Position numbers and translations under genes: made by a program. Shown here in pieces: positions 46,618-53,275 of a stretch of 64,000 nt of DNA (its first letter is position 1; each line of letters starts with the position of its first letter). The notes beneath the pieces were generated by a model. That model was not told the origin of the DNA. It ran no database searches and saw only the letters and a program-made list of their open reading frames with translations. This stretch comes from Desulfovibrio sp. Fe33 (GTDB taxonomy: Bacteria; Desulfobacterota; Desulfovibrionia; Desulfovibrionales; Desulfovibrionaceae). The stretch lies in NCBI RefSeq assembly GCF_028532725.1, contig NZ_JAQKGU010000006.1, forward strand, positions 1-64,000, written 5' to 3'.

Positions 46618-48897
46618 ATGAACAAGAACCTGCTCGAACTGATCGGCGACACGCCGCTGGTGGAGATACGCCGCCTCAACCCCAATCCGAACGTCAGGAT
46701 TTTGGCCAAGATCGAGAGCCGCAATCCCGGCGGGTCCATCAAGGACCGCGTGGCCGCGGCCATGATCGAGGCCGCGGAAAAGTCGGGTGAGCTGACCGGA
46801 GACAAGATCATCATCGAGGCCACCTCGGGCAATACCGGCGTGGGGCTGGCCATGGTTGCGGCCATCAAGGGCTATCGCATCAAGCTCATCATGCCCGAGA
46901 CGGCCAGCGAAGAACGCAAGATGATCATGGCCGCCTACGGCGCGGAGCTGGAACTGACCCCCGGCCATCTGGCCACCGACGGGGCCATCGAGCAGGCCTA
47001 CCGCTACGCCCGCGAGGAACCGGAAAAGTATGTGCTCATGGACCAGTACAACAACCTGGCCTCCATACAGGCGCACTACATGGGCACCGGGCTGGAAATC
47101 TGGAACCAGACCGGCGGCGCGGTGACGCACTGCGTCATGACCCTCGGCACCTCGGGCACGGCCATGGGCATCGCCAAGAGGCTGCACGAGATGGGCGACG
47201 TCTACGTGGCCGCAGTGGAGCCCTATGCGGGCCACAAGATCCAGGGCCTCAAGAACATGCTCGAATCCTATCCGCCGGGCATCTATGACAAGACCGCCCT
47301 GGACGAGGTCCTGCACGTCGAGGACGAGGTCGCCTTCGAGAACTGCCGCAGACTCGCCCGCGAGGAGGGCATTTTCGCGGGCATGAGTTCGGGCGCGGCT
47401 CTCGGCGGCGCCTTGCAGTTGGCCGAACGTCTGGACAAGGGGCTCATCGTGGTCATCTTCCCCGACTCCGGCGAGCGGTATCTGTCCACCCACCTGTACC
47501 GTCGGCGGTCCGGCAGCGGCGTGACGATTTTCGACATGGCGTCCAACGCCGGGAAGATGCTCAACACCGGCAACGGGCTGGGCGCGTACACCATGGGGCC
47601 GAGCCTGGACAATCCTGACGGCCTGGATTCCTGGCGCAGGCTGGTGCTGCTCGACGTGTTCATCCGTCACCTGGCCGGGCGCGGCGTGGAGGCCGTGGGC
47701 GTGGCAGGGCTGACCGACATGGACGACCGCACCCTGGCGGCCGCCCGCGAAACGGGCATGGACCGGGCCTCCCTAGCCGAAGCCCGGCGAGAGACGATTC
47801 TGGAGCGCGGCCGTGTCATGGGGTTGTCGGATTCCCTGAAATTTCCCCTGTCCTCGGCGAGTAACGAGACCGCCCTGAATTTGTGCCGCAAGCTTCTGGG
47901 CAAGGGGTTGGCCTACGAGAAGTTGCGTTCCGTGTATTTCGACGTGTTCCGCGACAAGCGGTACGGCGAGATCGGCACCGTGGACATGGACAAGGTGTCC
48001 GGCGGCCGCACCGTGGACCTGGACGCCTACGTCAAGGACAACCCCCTCGATTTCACGCTGCTCAAGCGTGCCTCGCTCATGGACCTGAAACGCGGTGAAG
48101 TGCTGGAGACCCCGTGGGGCAACGTGCGTCCGAGCTGGTTCCTGCAACATGCGGCCATGGCCCTGGACGGGGCGGATCGCACGGATGTGATGATCGGCTC
48201 TGACAAGCATCGTTTTCCCCATCTGGAGAACCTGCGGGCCATCTGGTCCACGGCCGGGCGTGAGGTCCAGGCGTGGATGGCTTGCCAGCAGACTTCCGAG
48301 GGTGAGGGCGAGACCTTGGCGAGCGTGGCCGAAAAGCTGGGCGGCTACCGTGCGGCCCGGCTCTGGCTGCTGTCGGTGTCCCCCCGCAAGCAGTTGTGCG
48401 CGTCCGACGACAATCTGGCCATGTGGGCGCGCAACTGGCGGCGTATTCAGGAGGGCGCGGCGGCTCTCACGCTTTCACTGAGCGCGCGCGGCGACACCGT
48501 GTCCAGCAATGTGAACCAGGCCGTTTTCGATCTCAAGGCGGCCTTCAAAACGGCCATGGACGACGGCCTCAAGCTCCATACGTTCTGGCCCGCCCTGTTC
48601 AAGTTCGTCAAACAGGTCAACCATTGGGCCGCCAACGACGAACTCACCGGCGCGTCCGCTGCGGTCTGCCTCGACGAACTCAAGGCCGTCGACGTCATCC
48701 TGGCCATCCTCGATCCCGCCCAGATGCCCATTCCCTTTTCAGACCTCCCCGCCGAGGTCCAGGGCATGGTCGCCGACCGTCAGAAGGCGCGAGAAGCCAA
48801 GGACTTCGCCCTGTCGGACGAACTGCGCGACAAGATCGCGGCGGCGGGCTTCCGCGTGGAAGACACCGGCGGCGCGCCGAGGGTGTTCAAGGGGTAA
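46618..48897 (+). CDS. Cysteine synthase fused to a degenerate cysteinyl-tRNA synthetase-like domain
   Basis: The 759-residue protein is two enzymes in one frame. Residues 1-295 are a CysK/CysM-type PLP sulfhydrylase: LIGDTPLVEI, Schiff-base K42 in GGSIKDR, EATSGNTG (67-74), phosphate loop TLGTSGTAMG (175-184). Residues about 300-759 align along the whole of CysRS, from IFDM and AYTMGP through TDMDDRTL, NPLDFTLLK, PWGNVRPSW and GSDKHRFPHLEN to the C-terminal AREAKDFALSDELRDKIAAAGF. All synthetase essentials are gone: HIGH is replaced by DNPDGL (331-336), the four zinc ligands become M326, H511, L536 and L539, and KMSKS is absent. So it cannot charge tRNA in the usual way; a regulatory, tRNA-binding or persulfide-related role is open. 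ATG 46618. Divergent from the Maf gene. Confidence 0.9.
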   Translation: MNKNLLELIGDTPLVEIRRLNPNPNVRILAKIESRNPGGSIKDRVAAAMIEAAEKSGELTGDKIIIEATSGNTGVGLAMVAAIKGYRIKLIMPETASEERKMIMAAYGAELELTPGHLATDGAIEQAYRYAREEPEKYVLMDQYNNLASIQAHYMGTGLEIWNQTGGAVTHCVMTLGTSGTAMGIAKRLHEMGDVYVAAVEPYAGHKIQGLKNMLESYPPGIYDKTALDEVLHVEDEVAFENCRRLAREEGIFAGMSSGAALGGALQLAERLDKGLIVVIFPDSGERYLSTHLYRRRSGSGVTIFDMASNAGKMLNTGNGLGAYTMGPSLDNPDGLDSWRRLVLLDVFIRHLAGRGVEAVGVAGLTDMDDRTLAAARETGMDRASLAEARRETILERGRVMGLSDSLKFPLSSASNETALNLCRKLLGKGLAYEKLRSVYFDVFRDKRYGEIGTVDMDKVSGGRTVDLDAYVKDNPLDFTLLKRASLMDLKRGEVLETPWGNVRPSWFLQHAAMALDGADRTDVMIGSDKHRFPHLENLRAIWSTAGREVQAWMACQQTSEGEGETLASVAEKLGGYRAARLWLLSVSPRKQLCASDDNLAMWARNWRRIQEGAAALTLSLSARGDTVSSNVNQAVFDLKAAFKTAMDDGLKLHTFWPALFKFVKQVNHWAANDELTGASAAVCLDELKAVDVILAILDPAQMPIPFSDLPAEVQGMVADRQKAREAKDFALSDELRDKIAAAGFRVEDTGGAPRVFKG

Positions 48898-48986: not shown

Positions 48987-50861
48987 GTGAAATATCGTCC
49001 TGAAATTGACGGGTTGAGAGCGCTGGCCGTTCTGGGAGTCCTTTTTTATCATCTTGAATGGACGGTCGTACGCGGGGGATGGCTCGGCGTAGACATTTTT
49101 TTTGTCATATCCGGTTATCTCATTTCTTCAGTCCTGCTCAGCGAGTTGCAGGCAAAGGGAAAGGTCTCCATTTCCCATTTTTATCTTCGGCGCATCCGGA
49201 GAATAGCTCCGGCGCTGCTGGTTTGCCTGACGGGTTCGTTTTTTCTGGTTCTCCCGCTGACCGGAACCGAGGCTTTTTCCCAATACCTCAAATCCGCCGT
49301 CGCAGCGCTATTCTCTGTCTCCAATATCTTCTTCTGGCAACACTCTGGGTATTTTGCCTTGGACGCCAAGTTCGTTCCCCTGCTGCATACTTGGACGCTG
49401 GGCATCGAGGAACAATTCTATATCATCATACCGGCTGTCTTCGCGGTTCTCTCCCGTTGCGCCGTGCGGCGCAGGCGGTGGGTCTGGCTTGTCTTCGGTC
49501 TGATGACAGCGATTTCGTACGTCTTTTGCAGGTACGGCCGTGGCCTAGTTTCTCCGGAGTTTTTGTTTTACATGCTCCCTTCGCGTATGTGGGAGCTGGC
49601 CCTCGGCACAATGACGGCCTTGCTGCTTGTTAAGCATCCACGCATAGGTGAAACAACTCTTGCGGGCAACATCCTCAGTTCGGCTGGGGCGTTGTTTCTG
49701 ATATTTGCCCTGGCCTTGTATACCGGGAGTACTTTTTTTGCGGAAAAGGCATTGTTTGTTTGTATAGGGACAGTCCTTTTTATAATTTGTGCCCGCGAGG
49801 GCACTTTGGCTCATAAGTTCTTTGCAATTACTCCGGTTCGATTTATCGGGAAAATTTCTTATTCATTATATCTATGGCATTGGCCGGTCATAGTGTTTTG
49901 GAATATTTTAGTATTCAAGTGTTCGATTCAAAAGACCTTTTTATTTGATTTTGGAATTATACTCGTATCGACGGGCTTGGCGACCCTTTCGTGGAAGTAC
50001 ATTGAGCAGCCTTTCCGCCGAAAAGAGAACTGGGTATCCTGTCTGCAGCGCATGTCTCCTTATGTAGTGAGTTCTGCTGCTCTTGTGATGGTCGGATTTT
50101 TCTTTTTCCCTGCCCCTGCGAACCAGGCGATATTGGATTTGAGCCTTTATCCCGAGTCCTCGTACAACGATATGACGAAGGGAAAATACCCCGCATTGGG
50201 AGAGGGGGATACTCCCATGTTTATGGTCGTCGGCGATAGCCATGCGCGAGCTTTGGCTTACGCCTTTGACGCTTTTGCGGAGCAATATGGTGTATCGGGT
50301 GTTTTGGGAACCCATGGCTCCACCGCGCCGATTCCCACCACTAAAAAAGAAAATCCTTATGCCGAACTTTGGTTGCAGTACATAAATGAGCGTAAAGTGC
50401 AGCACGTAGTCCTGGTGGGGAATTGGAGAGGCTATCTCGATTACCGGAAATTGGGGAACAGAAGCGCTTGGGCTACACAGGATTTCGCTATAGCATTCCG
50501 TCGGACGGTCAAGAAATTGATACGGACTGGCCATCATGTGTGGATTGTTGAAGATGTGCCTCGGTTTCGACGCAATCCCGTGTTCGCCGTGCGGCTCATT
50601 ACGGAGGGGTATAGAGAAACCGTTGACCGTCGCAGGCAATATGCCATCTCCAGCCTGTTCCGGGATTTTTCCTCTCCACGTCTGCATATCTTGGATCCGT
50701 GGCCAGCGTTGGTCCAAGATGAAGTCATTCGTGCCGTGAGGGACGGTTATCTGCTCTACCGTGACGGGAACCACCTGACCCCGCAGGGGGCGCAGCTCGT
50801 TAAAAACGTTTTTACTCCTCTTTTTGAAACGATCATCGGGAGTGAAAAAAAACGGAGCTGA
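48987..50861 (+). CDS. OafA/YrhL-type acyltransferase with C-terminal SGNH domain
   Basis: The 624-residue protein has an N-terminal acyltransferase-3 domain of about ten membrane segments (YRPEIDGLRALAVLGVLFYH with the catalytic-type histidine, WLGVDIFFVISGYLIS, FYLRRIRRIAPAL, HTWTLGIEEQFY) and a periplasmic SGNH esterase-like domain with VVGDSHARAL and the D/H dyad in RDGNHLTPQG near the end. It should O-acetylate LPS O-antigen or another surface glycan. GC is clearly lower than neighbours (A/T-rich codons, many TTT and ATA), suggesting transfer. GTG start at 48987. Confidence 0.88.
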   Translation: MKYRPEIDGLRALAVLGVLFYHLEWTVVRGGWLGVDIFFVISGYLISSVLLSELQAKGKVSISHFYLRRIRRIAPALLVCLTGSFFLVLPLTGTEAFSQYLKSAVAALFSVSNIFFWQHSGYFALDAKFVPLLHTWTLGIEEQFYIIIPAVFAVLSRCAVRRRRWVWLVFGLMTAISYVFCRYGRGLVSPEFLFYMLPSRMWELALGTMTALLLVKHPRIGETTLAGNILSSAGALFLIFALALYTGSTFFAEKALFVCIGTVLFIICAREGTLAHKFFAITPVRFIGKISYSLYLWHWPVIVFWNILVFKCSIQKTFLFDFGIILVSTGLATLSWKYIEQPFRRKENWVSCLQRMSPYVVSSAALVMVGFFFFPAPANQAILDLSLYPESSYNDMTKGKYPALGEGDTPMFMVVGDSHARALAYAFDAFAEQYGVSGVLGTHGSTAPIPTTKKENPYAELWLQYINERKVQHVVLVGNWRGYLDYRKLGNRSAWATQDFAIAFRRTVKKLIRTGHHVWIVEDVPRFRRNPVFAVRLITEGYRETVDRRRQYAISSLFRDFSSPRLHILDPWPALVQDEVIRAVRDGYLLYRDGNHLTPQGAQLVKNVFTPLFETIIGSEKKRS

Positions 50862-50882: not shown

Positions 50883-51605
50883 TCATTTGCGAGACGCCAG
50901 ACAGTGTGTGTGGCCTTCTCCGTCTCCTAAGTATAAATCATCGCTGGTGCTGTACCGGCCGTCTCTCATTCCCCGATCAAGCAGGTCCTGAAGCTGTTCC
51001 AGCAGGCGAGACGCGTGGAATCCGTCGCAGACGGCGTGATGCGCCTGGATCGCCAGGGGGAGTTGGACGCTTGCTCCCTGCTCGAAGAATTTGCCCATGG
51101 TGAAGATGGGCAGGAGGTACTTTTCGGCCCGGGGCAGGTTGAGGTTGAAGCCGGTGAAGCTCGTCCAGGGGATGGCGGAGATGTTGAACAGATTCTCCGG
51201 CGGGTCGGGCTTTGGGCAATACCGCCTGGTGCCGCCGTATCGCGCCATGTCGTCGAGGACGGCTTCGTACATGGCGTTGCGATTGCCGTCGAATTCCGTC
51301 CATATGGCGGAAAACAGCTCGGATTCCTTGTCGAAGACGGTGTACGAAGGGTGGAGGATGTCGTGAATAACGAGTTCACCGGATTCGCGGTAGGCGGTCC
51401 TGAACTCGGGCATGGTGTTCACGGCCCCGGCGATCAGGCAGATGAGCATCGGGTACAGCTTGAGGCCGTTCGCTTTCTGCGTCGCGCGAAAACGGGTTAT
51501 GTCGAGATTGGCGGTCATGCTGAAAGAACAAGGCGCGACTTCCGTGAAATGTCTGAAGAGTTCTCGTCGTTTCCACGTATCCATGTCTATGCGGGTGAAG
51601 GGCAT
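50883..51605 (-). CDS. Chloramphenicol acetyltransferase-family enzyme (CatA-like)
   Basis: The 240-residue protein follows classical CAT along its length: WKRRELFRHF at the start, LYPMLICLIAGAVNTMPEFR, YTVFDKESELFSAIW, NISAIPWTSFTGFNLNL, FTMGKFFEQG and the catalytic QAHHAVCDGFHASRL, with H190 as base and D194. Such trimeric cytoplasmic enzymes acetylate chloramphenicol with acetyl-CoA; whether this one does is not certain. ATG 51605 with GAGGAA upstream. No mobile element directly flanks it, but it lies between an AT-rich acyltransferase gene and a family B repeat. Confidence 0.87.
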   Translation of the reverse strand: MPFTRIDMDTWKRRELFRHFTEVAPCSFSMTANLDITRFRATQKANGLKLYPMLICLIAGAVNTMPEFRTAYRESGELVIHDILHPSYTVFDKESELFSAIWTEFDGNRNAMYEAVLDDMARYGGTRRYCPKPDPPENLFNISAIPWTSFTGFNLNLPRAEKYLLPIFTMGKFFEQGASVQLPLAIQAHHAVCDGFHASRLLEQLQDLLDRGMRDGRYSTSDDLYLGDGEGHTHCLASRK

Positions 51606-51727
51606 TGCATTCCTCGGCGATTGCGGTTTGGGGAGATTTCGTCCCTGAGTCGCCGCGCTATCTTGGTACGGGGAGACTGTCAATCCCTGGGGCGGCAATT
51701 CGTGGCCGGTTCGCGTCAAAGACACAA

Positions 51728-51832
51728 AGCGGGATGGAAGGGGCGAATCCTTCCCCGCCGGAGGCCAAGTCATTCGACAATTGCCGCGCAGCGGACTTCA
51801 AATCTTGATTTCCTCCTCCTCTCCGCAGTCAA
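51728..51832 (+). repeat. Dispersed repeat family B, copy 5
   Basis: Diverged copy: gcgggatggaaggggcgaatccttccccgccggaggccaagtc-type core, cgacaattgccgcgcagcgg mini-hairpin and ttcaaatcttgatttcc tail. Confidence 0.7.
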
Positions 51833-51885: not shown

Positions 51886-53022
51886 CTAGTCAAACAGGTA
51901 CAGGAATTCACCATACCCCTCGGCTTCCATTTTATCCTTGGGGATAAAGCGCAGGGCGGCGGAGTTCATGCAGTAGCGTTGGCCCGTGGGCTGCGGGCCG
52001 TCCGGGAAGACATGGCCCAGATGGGAGTCGGCGGCCTTGCTGCGCACCTCGGTGCGGGGCTGGAAGAGACGCCGGTCCACCTTTTCAACGAGGTTTTCCG
52101 GGACCAGCGGCTTGCTGAAACTCGGCCACCCCGTGCCGGAATCGTATTTGTCCCGGCTTGAGAAGAGCGGTTCGCCGCTGACCACGTCCACGTAGATGCC
52201 TTCAGCGTGGTTGTCCCAGTATTCGTTGTTGAAGGGCGCTTCTGTGCCTTCGTGCTGCGTGACCTGGTACTGAAGGGGCGTCAGGGCCCGCTTGAGCTCG
52301 GCGTCGCCGGGCTTGGTGAACGTGCCGTCCGGGGCCGGCGGTTCGGGCGTGTCCTGCCGGGCCGCTTCGATGACGTCGTCGGCCTCGTCGCCCCAGAACT
52401 CGTTCACGAACCTGTCGCGGCCCGAAAAGCGGCGGTAGGTCTTGTAACGCATCGGGTTGAGGCCGGAGTATCCCTGGTGGTAGTCCTCGGCGGGGTAGAA
52501 AGTGGTGTACTCGATTACAGGCGTGACCACCGGGCTGTCGAACCGGCCGGATTCGTCGAGAGCCAGTTTGGACGCTTCTGCGATCTCCCGTTGTTGTTCG
52601 CTGTGATAGAAGACGGCCGAGGTGTATTGGAACCCCCGGTCGCCGAAGGAACCGCCGTCGTCGGTGGGATCGAAATGACGCCAGTAATGGTCGAGCACCT
52701 GGGCGTAGCTGATCCGCGACGGGTCGAAAGTGACCTGTACCGCTTCGCGGTGGCTGGTGAGGCCGGTGGCCACCTGCTCGTAGCTGGGATCGGCTTCGAC
52801 GCCGCCCGCATAGCCGGAAACGGCCTTTATCACGCCGGGTAATTTTTCCATGTCCGATTCGACGCACCAGAAGCACCCGCCCGCCAGGGTGGCCGTTTCC
52901 AGTTTCAACATGCCGTTATCTGCCATTTTCACTTCCTCCGATGAAAAGGATGGGGGAGTTCCGAAGCCGAGCGAAAGCGCTATGGCCCCCATTAGAATGA
53001 TGAATGCGAATTGACGCTTCAT
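51886..53022 (-). CDS. msrAB: Periplasmic fused methionine sulfoxide reductase MsrA-MsrB
   Basis: The 378-residue protein has a signal peptide ([20 protein letters not shown]), an MsrA domain with catalytic C50 in GGCFWC and an MsrB domain with catalytic C351 in RYCMNS, so it repairs both S- and R-methionine sulfoxide outside the cytoplasm. The MsrB part lacks the two zinc CxxC pairs found in many relatives. Start ATG 53022 with AGGAGA upstream opens the signal peptide. In an anaerobe this points to defence against oxidants from occasional air exposure. Divergent from a SLOG-like gene. Confidence 0.92.
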
Positions 53023-53275
53023 GGGTTGTCTCCTGAATTGGGAGTAGTAGCCATTATCGCTTATATGTATGCATACTTCCCGGCAAGTCAATGGCGAGGT
53101 GTAAGCGCATTGAAAGAACAGGGCGGCGAGAACCATTATTTTTGCCAGAAAAAGATGGATTTTTGGCTTGTTTTGGGGCAGTGCCATTGCTTCGTGGCGA
53201 CAGGATGTGCATAGTGGGCGTGTCAGGCCGTCGGCCGCGACCGAATTTCGCATTCAATCACATCAAGGAGAGACC

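Follow-up and report, generated by a model that had tools for sequence, protein, structure and literature searches.

HisZ, a paralog of histidyl-tRNA synthetase that regulates HisG, is synthetase-like, performs no adenylation, and acts on the pathway that makes its own amino acid, according to the part of a review that deals with it (PMC9437257). For cysteinyl-tRNA synthetase (CysRS, or CysS), the table of paralogs in the same review contains CysRS* and MshC. MshC is the mycothiol cysteine ligase, derived from CysRS; CysRS* of Desulfobacterales (Mukai 2017b, as summarized there) is a second CysRS-like protein in sulfate reducers, which has no anticodon domain and charges SelC*. Here we analyze another derivative of CysRS, not included in that table and encoded in a 64,000-nucleotide stretch of the Desulfovibrio sp. 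Fe33 genome (contig NZ_JAQKGU010000006.1, positions 1 to 64,000; the window, below). In this protein a CysM-type cysteine synthase is fused to a CysRS-like domain, in which the aminoacylation site is lost and residues of the anticodon site are retained. We tentatively favor, short of calling it probable, a reading in which the synthase, independent of CysE in many hosts, is attached to a pseudo-CysRS that binds tRNA-Cys and adjusts cysteine synthesis. The fusion is apparently undescribed: searches of the open PubMed Central literature on the fusion and on CysRS paralogs, preprints not covered, brought up no description of it.

Architecture of the fusion protein

The gene is a single unbroken forward-strand frame of 759 codons and a stop (46618-48897); the stop-to-stop frame has 764 codons, so that the start is known to within five codons. 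Pfam matches are PALP in residues 7-283 (1.2e-66), tRNA-synt_1e in residues 320-546 (1.8e-22) and CysS_C in residues 709-752 (1.1e-6). The AlphaFold2 model of the whole protein has a mean predicted local distance difference test score of 86.6 and a predicted template modeling score of 0.77, and the CysRS-like domain modeled alone scores 89.9 and 0.88, respectively. The synthase half scores 347.7 bits with the NCBIfam model of the CysK/CysM family (cysKM, TIGR01136; curated cut-off 344.15, residues 6-294) and 344.7 bits, below the cut-off of 394.2, with the CysM equivalog model TIGR01138; in structure comparison it matches 2bht (Z 43.4) and CysM of Mycobacterium tuberculosis (3dki, Z 42.4). The closest matches of the modeled CysRS-like domain include 8qhp (Z 41.1, root-mean-square deviation 2.5 over 389 residues) and the tRNA-bound CysRS of Escherichia coli, 1u0b (Z 40.3, deviation 5.7 over 432 residues).

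Pfam and the model thus agree with the original prediction, made from the letters alone, that one frame encodes a full sulfhydrylase dependent on pyridoxal phosphate (PLP) and then a domain following CysRS from end to end. No frameshift separates the halves, and the profiles (tRNA-synt_1e, CysS_C) and the model point to the CysRS fold. The remaining possibility, that faulty sequencing or a chimeric contig joined two genes, has a negligible probability and can be ruled out together with the frameshift, given that all 134 fusions examined share this architecture and that their synthase halves form one clade (97/99). The fusion is real, and is one protein.

Erosion of the aminoacylation site

Functional sites were mapped by alignment to 23 true CysRS, those of E. 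coli and of 22 members of the order Desulfovibrionales. Three of the four zinc ligands of the E. coli enzyme, Cys28, Cys209 and Glu238, are lost, their places being taken by M326, H511 and L539, and the fourth, His234, is retained as H535. The three replacements had been recognized in the original prediction; the histidine, however, had been placed at L536, which corresponds to E. coli His235, and with the true ligand overlooked, the claim of a loss of every catalytic element went too far. The predicted losses of HIGH and KMSKS are borne out, with GLDS at the place of the former and a gap opposite the latter (Table 1). From these alignments, the aminoacylation site of the window protein is firmly judged to be lost, and adenylation by it is unlikely because the motifs are lost. 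Profile scores are in line with the predicted divergence: the protein receives 131.3 bits from the NCBIfam cysS model (TIGR00435), whose curated cut-off is 340, and 40.4 bits from the MshC model TIGR03447, against an equivalog cut-off of 485.1, which rejects an identity with MshC.

The domain is constrained and not decaying, because the ratio of nonsynonymous to synonymous substitution rates within the genus (seven comparisons) is 0.08-0.24 in the CysRS-like half; it is 0.015-0.12 in the synthase half. Eleven residues, including P328, R341, K435, R484 and K491, characterize the fusions, each occurring in 95% or more of them and only rarely in true CysRS. Of these fusion-specific residues, several that adjoin the HIGH place or precede that of Cys209 may help to couple the domain to the synthase. 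One of the signatures in Table 1 was read from an alignment of 40 of the order's 54 fusions; a further alignment had 28 of them.

The 134 aligned fusions comprise 54 from the survey of the order and 20 and 60 from a sample of the phylum, and 34 of the rows come from one genus; loci L069, L070, G019 (split) and G056 (partial) were left out, and eight duplicate loci were removed. The full zinc set (Cys, Cys, His, Glu) is present in 35 of them, 11 of which also have HxG and a KMSKS-like loop, and neither zinc cysteine is present in 65, the window protein and 64 others. The description of a dead CysRS welded to a cysteine synthase is therefore right for the window protein and the 54 aligned fusions of its order, and wrong for the family as a whole, which is not uniformly dead. 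A tree of the synthase half was built by a quick method from 81 fusions (rows at 85% identity or more removed from the 134) and seven standalone rows; on it the intact-zinc state changes at least seven times (starred branches require four of these changes), the KMSKS-like state changes nine times, and the state with no zinc cysteine only twice. Such counts do not separate gain from loss; a regain of all four ligands seems unlikely.

Fusions with better-preserved sites bring up the idea of a make-and-load enzyme, in which the ancestor would have handed cysteine to its own CysRS domain, intact members would still do so, and the Desulfovibrionales form would have decayed. The 11 fusions with zinc ligands, HxG and KMSKS-like loop are consistent with it, as are the 41 of 59 fused domains that pass the CysRS cut-off of 340 bits, and that automatic annotation may label as CysRS for this reason. 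But the fourth HIGH residue is His or Asn in only one of the 11; purifying selection on the dead domain in the window's genus argues against a passive remnant; and a separate CysRS above the cut-off is present in 54 of the 59 fusion genomes, in 50 of them at more than 525 bits (the lower-scoring ones are in G164, G220, G194 and G153; genomes are given our own numbers). The Fe33 genome itself has the normal cysS about which the original prediction had asked, at 566 bits. Because of these separate enzymes, the fused domain is not needed for tRNA charging where they are present. Only a fragment was found in G082, and no separate CysRS in G413, G064, G137 and G276; the latter four would fit a charging fusion, but are at most 94% complete. 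On balance we consider a make-and-load enzyme improbable.

Two observations concern the separate CysRS. In G153, locus L201 (G153:C20:3532-4905) encodes a CysRS in a 738-residue frame with about 256 residues beyond the CysRS match and no synthase half. Four CysRS paralogs without the anticodon domain (G332:C6:115358-116590, G335:C34:19106-20356, G193:C61:164356-165615 and G430:C1:2100534-2101781), with frames of 421-427 residues whose matches run from position 1 of the profile no further than about 405, and with in-frame stops in two of the four matches, resemble CysRS* of Desulfobacterales as it is outlined in PMC9437257.

Constancy of the anticodon site

The C-terminal domain has a different history. 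Counterparts of the anticodon-recognition residues of CysRS, R423, R427, the aromatic residue 432 and D436 in E. coli numbering, are all present in the window protein as R721, R725, F730 and D734. Across the 134 fusions, R423, D436, R439 and D451, the last of which is presumably also a tRNA contact, are kept without exception, position 432 is always aromatic, and the place of R427 holds Arg in 125, Lys in eight and Gln in one. The same four invariant residues persist in all 65 fusions that have no zinc cysteine. The relevant passage of PMC12684709 describes contacts of R423, R427, W432 and D436 of CysRS with G34, the wobble base of tRNA-Cys.

At 34 of the 126 positions that are invariant in the 23 true CysRS, 93% or more of the fusions keep the residue. 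These include four of the four anticodon positions (423, 427, 436 and 451) versus 30 of the 122 others; of 12 catalytic positions, one is kept. Retention of tRNA-Cys binding as a function would be the simplest account, because one site erodes beside another that stays constant.

The CysRS fold might also have been kept as a scaffold, solely for oligomerization or stability of the synthase, with a structural role for the conserved C-terminal residues. H234, W205, P203 and further positions are invariant in fusions as well, and an interface could be built from the family-specific R341, K435, R484 and K491. We nevertheless regard a mere scaffold as rather unlikely: away from the anticodon site, most positions of true CysRS have not been preserved (92 of 122 are kept in fewer than 93% of fusions), and standalone CysM-type proteins in CysE-less genomes (G256, G381; see below) argue that the synthase fold does not need the domain.

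Phyletic distribution and origin

Conservation in relatives is high: among 60 genomes, the window's own and 59 others, the fusion is present in 55 (in one frame in 54, and over two contigs in G019). There is a partial frame only in G056, and the fusion was not seen in G029, G042, G043 and G054, two of which are only 82% and 85% complete. Nor is it restricted to Desulfovibrionales, where the original prediction had suggested a survey of homologs. In 395 genomes of the phylum there are at least 150 matches, by count all those listed in frames of at least 740 residues; when 79 of the listed matches and the one in G187 were retrieved, the synthase half was there in 80 of 80. The clade of synthase halves was obtained with 76 rows, 20 near-duplicate rows of the order having been dropped and L070 retained, and because the halves form one clade, a single origin of the fusion is the simplest reading. 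The fusion is evidently ancient and spread over the phylum.

Loss of the domain from a fusion was considered for G043 and for a genus of the window's own family (g15 in family f1; see below) and rejected; since their standalone CysM-type proteins (one from G043, four from g15) fall outside the fusion clade, it seems that the whole fusion gene is missing there. A second type of fusion, an 871-residue frame in G115, was judged spurious, because the sequence ahead of the CysM start is GC-rich and its translation Arg-rich.

Additional copies of the domain were observed in two cases. Locus L070 (G027:C8:26316-27689) has a CysRS-like domain in a 503-residue frame, 81% identical to that of the window; G027 also has a full fusion, and L070 lies near the copy of G032 on the tree, so that it may be a contamination or a broken extra copy. 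Locus L012 (G002:C1:1806322-1806576) is a fragment that has 54% identity to residues 365-451 of the 459-residue domain, in its C-terminal part; it contains one in-frame stop, lies about 250 bases after the match of the fusion gene, and is possibly the remnant of a tandem copy.

Cysteine synthesis in the host genomes

Genes of cysteine synthesis were counted in 62 fusion genomes at cut-offs of E <= 1e-60 for CysK/CysM and E <= 1e-15 for CysE, with a CysE match called strong at 1e-40 or better; the strong matches all remain below the curated cut-off of 210.65 bits, so that only the profile marks them as CysE-like. The fusion is the sole CysK/CysM protein in 30 genomes, of which 27 have no CysE, three have a weak match (G049, G053 and G111, 1e-31 to 1e-33) and none has a strong one. 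In the 32 genomes with a second CysK/CysM, CysE is strong in 31 and missing in one (G187, where the second gene is of CysM type). Since none of the 30 sole-fusion genomes has a strong CysE, the fusion would work without O-acetylserine in roughly half the tested hosts, as far as the CysE models tell, and it is a candidate for the cysteine synthase of CysE-less genomes in this phylum.

Feedback in cysteine synthesis is normally given by CysE. With strong CysE missing from 30 of 30 sole-fusion genomes, another feedback point would be useful, and the CysRS-like pocket might provide it by binding L-cysteine, through zinc where the ligands are kept, and inhibiting the synthase with no involvement of tRNA. 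The complete zinc set in 35 of 134 fusions fits such a sensor, and HisZ is a known synthetase paralog that mediates feedback by its amino acid, according to the section of PMC9437257 on that protein. Yet both zinc cysteines are missing from the window protein and from 64 other fusions, and a cysteine sensor leaves the constancy of the anticodon-site residues unexplained; we hold it to be unlikely, if less so than a scaffold or a make-and-load enzyme.

Among genomes without the fusion, seven of 36 tested have no strong CysE (no match in six, a weak one in G418), and each has one CysK/CysM-type match; the six genes retrieved stand alone and do not belong to the fusion clade. Because such genes exist in CysE-less genomes, the CysRS-like domain is best seen as an addition, not needed for the reaction as such. 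As a separate observation, G075, G113, G149, G178, G256 and G381 have neither CysE nor the fusion and each encodes a single standalone CysM-type protein with the loop GLKHM; these six are candidate CysE-independent synthases without an extra domain.

A possible link between tRNA-Cys and cysteine synthesis

In the reading that we tentatively prefer, the pseudo-CysRS half would bind tRNA-Cys via its preserved anticodon site; the activity of the synthase would respond to this binding, or to whether the bound tRNA is charged, and cysteine output would then track the demand of translation. Among the new jobs proposed for the domain in the original prediction, the sensing of tRNA-Cys is thus favored, with anticodon residues constant while the zinc state changed several times; the sensing of cysteine at the canonical zinc site cannot apply to the window protein, with its M326, H511 and L539. 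Nothing seen in this analysis, in which no test was aimed at them, speaks for the other proposals, a carrier of channeled cysteine or a part in PLP-dependent persulfide formation. A narrower version, possible and less likely than the general one, is that the pseudo-synthetase half recognizes free, uncharged tRNA-Cys and in response turns on the cysteine synthase to which it is fused.

Several points weigh against a tRNA link. The conservation of R423, D436, R439 and D451 might reflect what the small C-terminal domain needs in order to fold, and the Fisher test of the retention of anticodon versus other positions (p 0.0046) concerns four positions picked after the alignment was seen and ignores kinship. 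The gene neighborhood is not conserved across the phylum, where the largest group of like neighboring frames has nine loci at scattered positions. In genus g15, 11 genomes (G135, G168, G197, G224, G249, G294, G315, G376, G394, G412 and G431) have no fusion-level match among the matches listed, only one of the strength that an ordinary CysRS gives (1e-51 to 1e-55). Seven g15 genomes were tested, and each has CysK/CysM frames of 308-374 residues and a strong CysE-like match; the single CysK/CysM of G294, G315 and G376 is outside the fusion clade. As g15 shows, some lineages can do without the function. In the window's organism, which by its named relatives belongs in or near Pseudodesulfovibrio, the fusion is an extra cysteine synthase: the genome has a separate cysK, with a CysE-like match starting 399 bases after the cysK match.

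The sulfur acceptor is a further difficulty. Arg220 of M. tuberculosis CysM has a role in its O-phosphoserine sulfhydrylase activity, and a basic residue was looked for at this position. In the CysM-like substrate loop of the fusion, GLKNM, K212 corresponds to position 220 of the 323-residue M. tuberculosis chain if the stretch is ungapped, as equal-length aligned ranges for 3dwi suggest; that comparison comes from a short-fragment search that gave ranges without residues and whose top matches were chance ones to repeat proteins. K212 is not diagnostic of O-phosphoserine use, and E. coli CysM carries Arg at the same place. SerA is above the cut-off in 23 of 32 genomes, all 23 being among the 24 outside the order, and in none of the eight in the order, which are the window's own genome (G000, with partial SerA-like matches only, at best 301 bits against a cut-off of 454) and seven sole-fusion genomes, G037, G041, G049, G050, G053, G056 and G058. 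SerC_1, the only SerC type searched, has no match in these eight and is found in six of the 32, with nine of 14 controls also giving no match. The missing SerA and SerC_1 fit the gap in serine synthesis that GapMind reported for Desulfovibrio vulgaris, in which it saw no standard serine pathway, as mentioned in part of PMC7311316. O-phosphoserine would be the obvious acceptor, but its firm assignment was dropped on account of the SerA and SerC_1 results; it is plausible elsewhere in the phylum and doubtful in the window's order.

No riboswitch or T-box was matched at the Rfam gathering thresholds in the 64 kb window, and a simple scan found no sigma-70-like promoter or terminator around the gene.

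If a tRNA link is true, a bacterial biosynthetic enzyme would gauge translation demand by tRNA and not by its end product. In the narrower version, a metabolic enzyme would be under direct tRNA control, a counterpart, at the post-translational level, to the T-box and GCN2, whose HisRS-like part follows a similar logic; such control would have been kept across a phylum of sulfate reducers, often in their only synthase of the CysK/CysM family. The family also represents a natural series, with one fold, an aminoacylation site that is intact, partly eroded or lost, and a constant anticodon site, which would let the change from synthetase to regulator be tested directly.

Features of the locus

The features are collected in Table 1, with neighboring genes at its end.

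Table 1. The fusion gene, its predicted sites and neighboring genes, in window positions
Feature	Position	Strand	Basis and conservation
Fusion gene, CysM-type cysteine synthase + CysRS-like domain	46618..48897	+	Single frame in 54/60 genomes (own included), over two contigs in one more
PLP-dependent cysteine synthase domain, CysM-like, residues 1-296	46618..47505	+	PALP, cysKM, structure matches
K42, PLP lysine by family homology	46741..46743	+	K in 134/134 fusions; codon checked
TSGNTG, residues 69-74	46822..46839	+	SGNTG in 134/134 fusions; T69 is T in 123, S in 11
K212-N213, substrate loop	47251..47256	+	K and N in 134/134 fusions
CysRS-like domain, residues 301-759; fold retained, aminoacylation site lost	47518..48894	+	Pfam, fold match of predicted model
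M326, place of zinc ligand Cys28	47593..47595	+	C in 60/134 fusions, M in 34/134
GLDS, G335-L336-D337-S338, place of HIGH (E. coli 37-40)	47620..47631	+	Alignment; HxG then H/N in 6/134 fusions
R340-R341, fusion-family signature	47635..47640	+	Both in 134/134 fusions; R at R341 place in 0/23 true CysRS
YEKLR (433-437), signature in catalytic half of the domain	47914..47928	+	Invariant in 40-row alignment; K435 in 128/134
H511, place of zinc ligand Cys209	48148..48150	+	C in 69/134 fusions, H in 34/134
H535, place of zinc ligand His234, retained	48220..48222	+	H in 134/134 fusions, 23/23 true CysRS
L539, place of zinc ligand Glu238	48232..48234	+	E in 40/134 fusions, L in 53/134
Deleted KMSKS loop, after residue 564	48304..48312	+	Gap opposite E. 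coli 266-273
Anticodon-binding C-terminal domain: R721, R725, F730, D734, R737, D749 (E. coli R423, R427, W432, D436, R439, D451)	48742..48873	+	CysS_C 1.1e-6; conservation
Acyltransferase-SGNH protein, beside the gene of the chloramphenicol acetyltransferase (CAT) family	48987-50861
CAT-family protein	50883-51773	-	CAT 2e-75
MsrA-MsrB fusion (PMSR + SelR domains), downstream	51886-53253	-	Like frames near fusion in five relatives

Comparison with known systems

With CysM (cysteine synthase B, including the M. tuberculosis CysM, an O-phosphoserine sulfhydrylase) the fusion shares the fold (Z 42-43), the PLP lysine, SGNTG and a CysM-like loop, at about 40-44% identity in the aligned structures; it differs in the extra 459-residue CysRS-like extension. 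With bacterial CysRS it shares the whole fold, as predicted here, the anticodon-domain residues, H234 and W205, but lacks HIGH, KMSKS and three of the four zinc ligands, and scores far below the family cut-off. MshC is likewise derived from CysRS and is similar in structure (Z 38.4); its chains, however, align to residues 1-399 of the model only, without the C-terminal anticodon domain that the fusion has. CysRS*, as presented in the corresponding part of PMC9437257, is the reverse case, an active enzyme without the anticodon domain, whereas the fusion keeps this domain and has lost the active site. HisZ is a separate, histidine-responsive subunit for which regulation has been shown, and here a CysRS-like domain is fused to the enzyme, the anticodon site is kept, and regulation would follow by analogy; with these differences, HisZ is the closest precedent for a synthetase-like protein that regulates how an amino acid is made.

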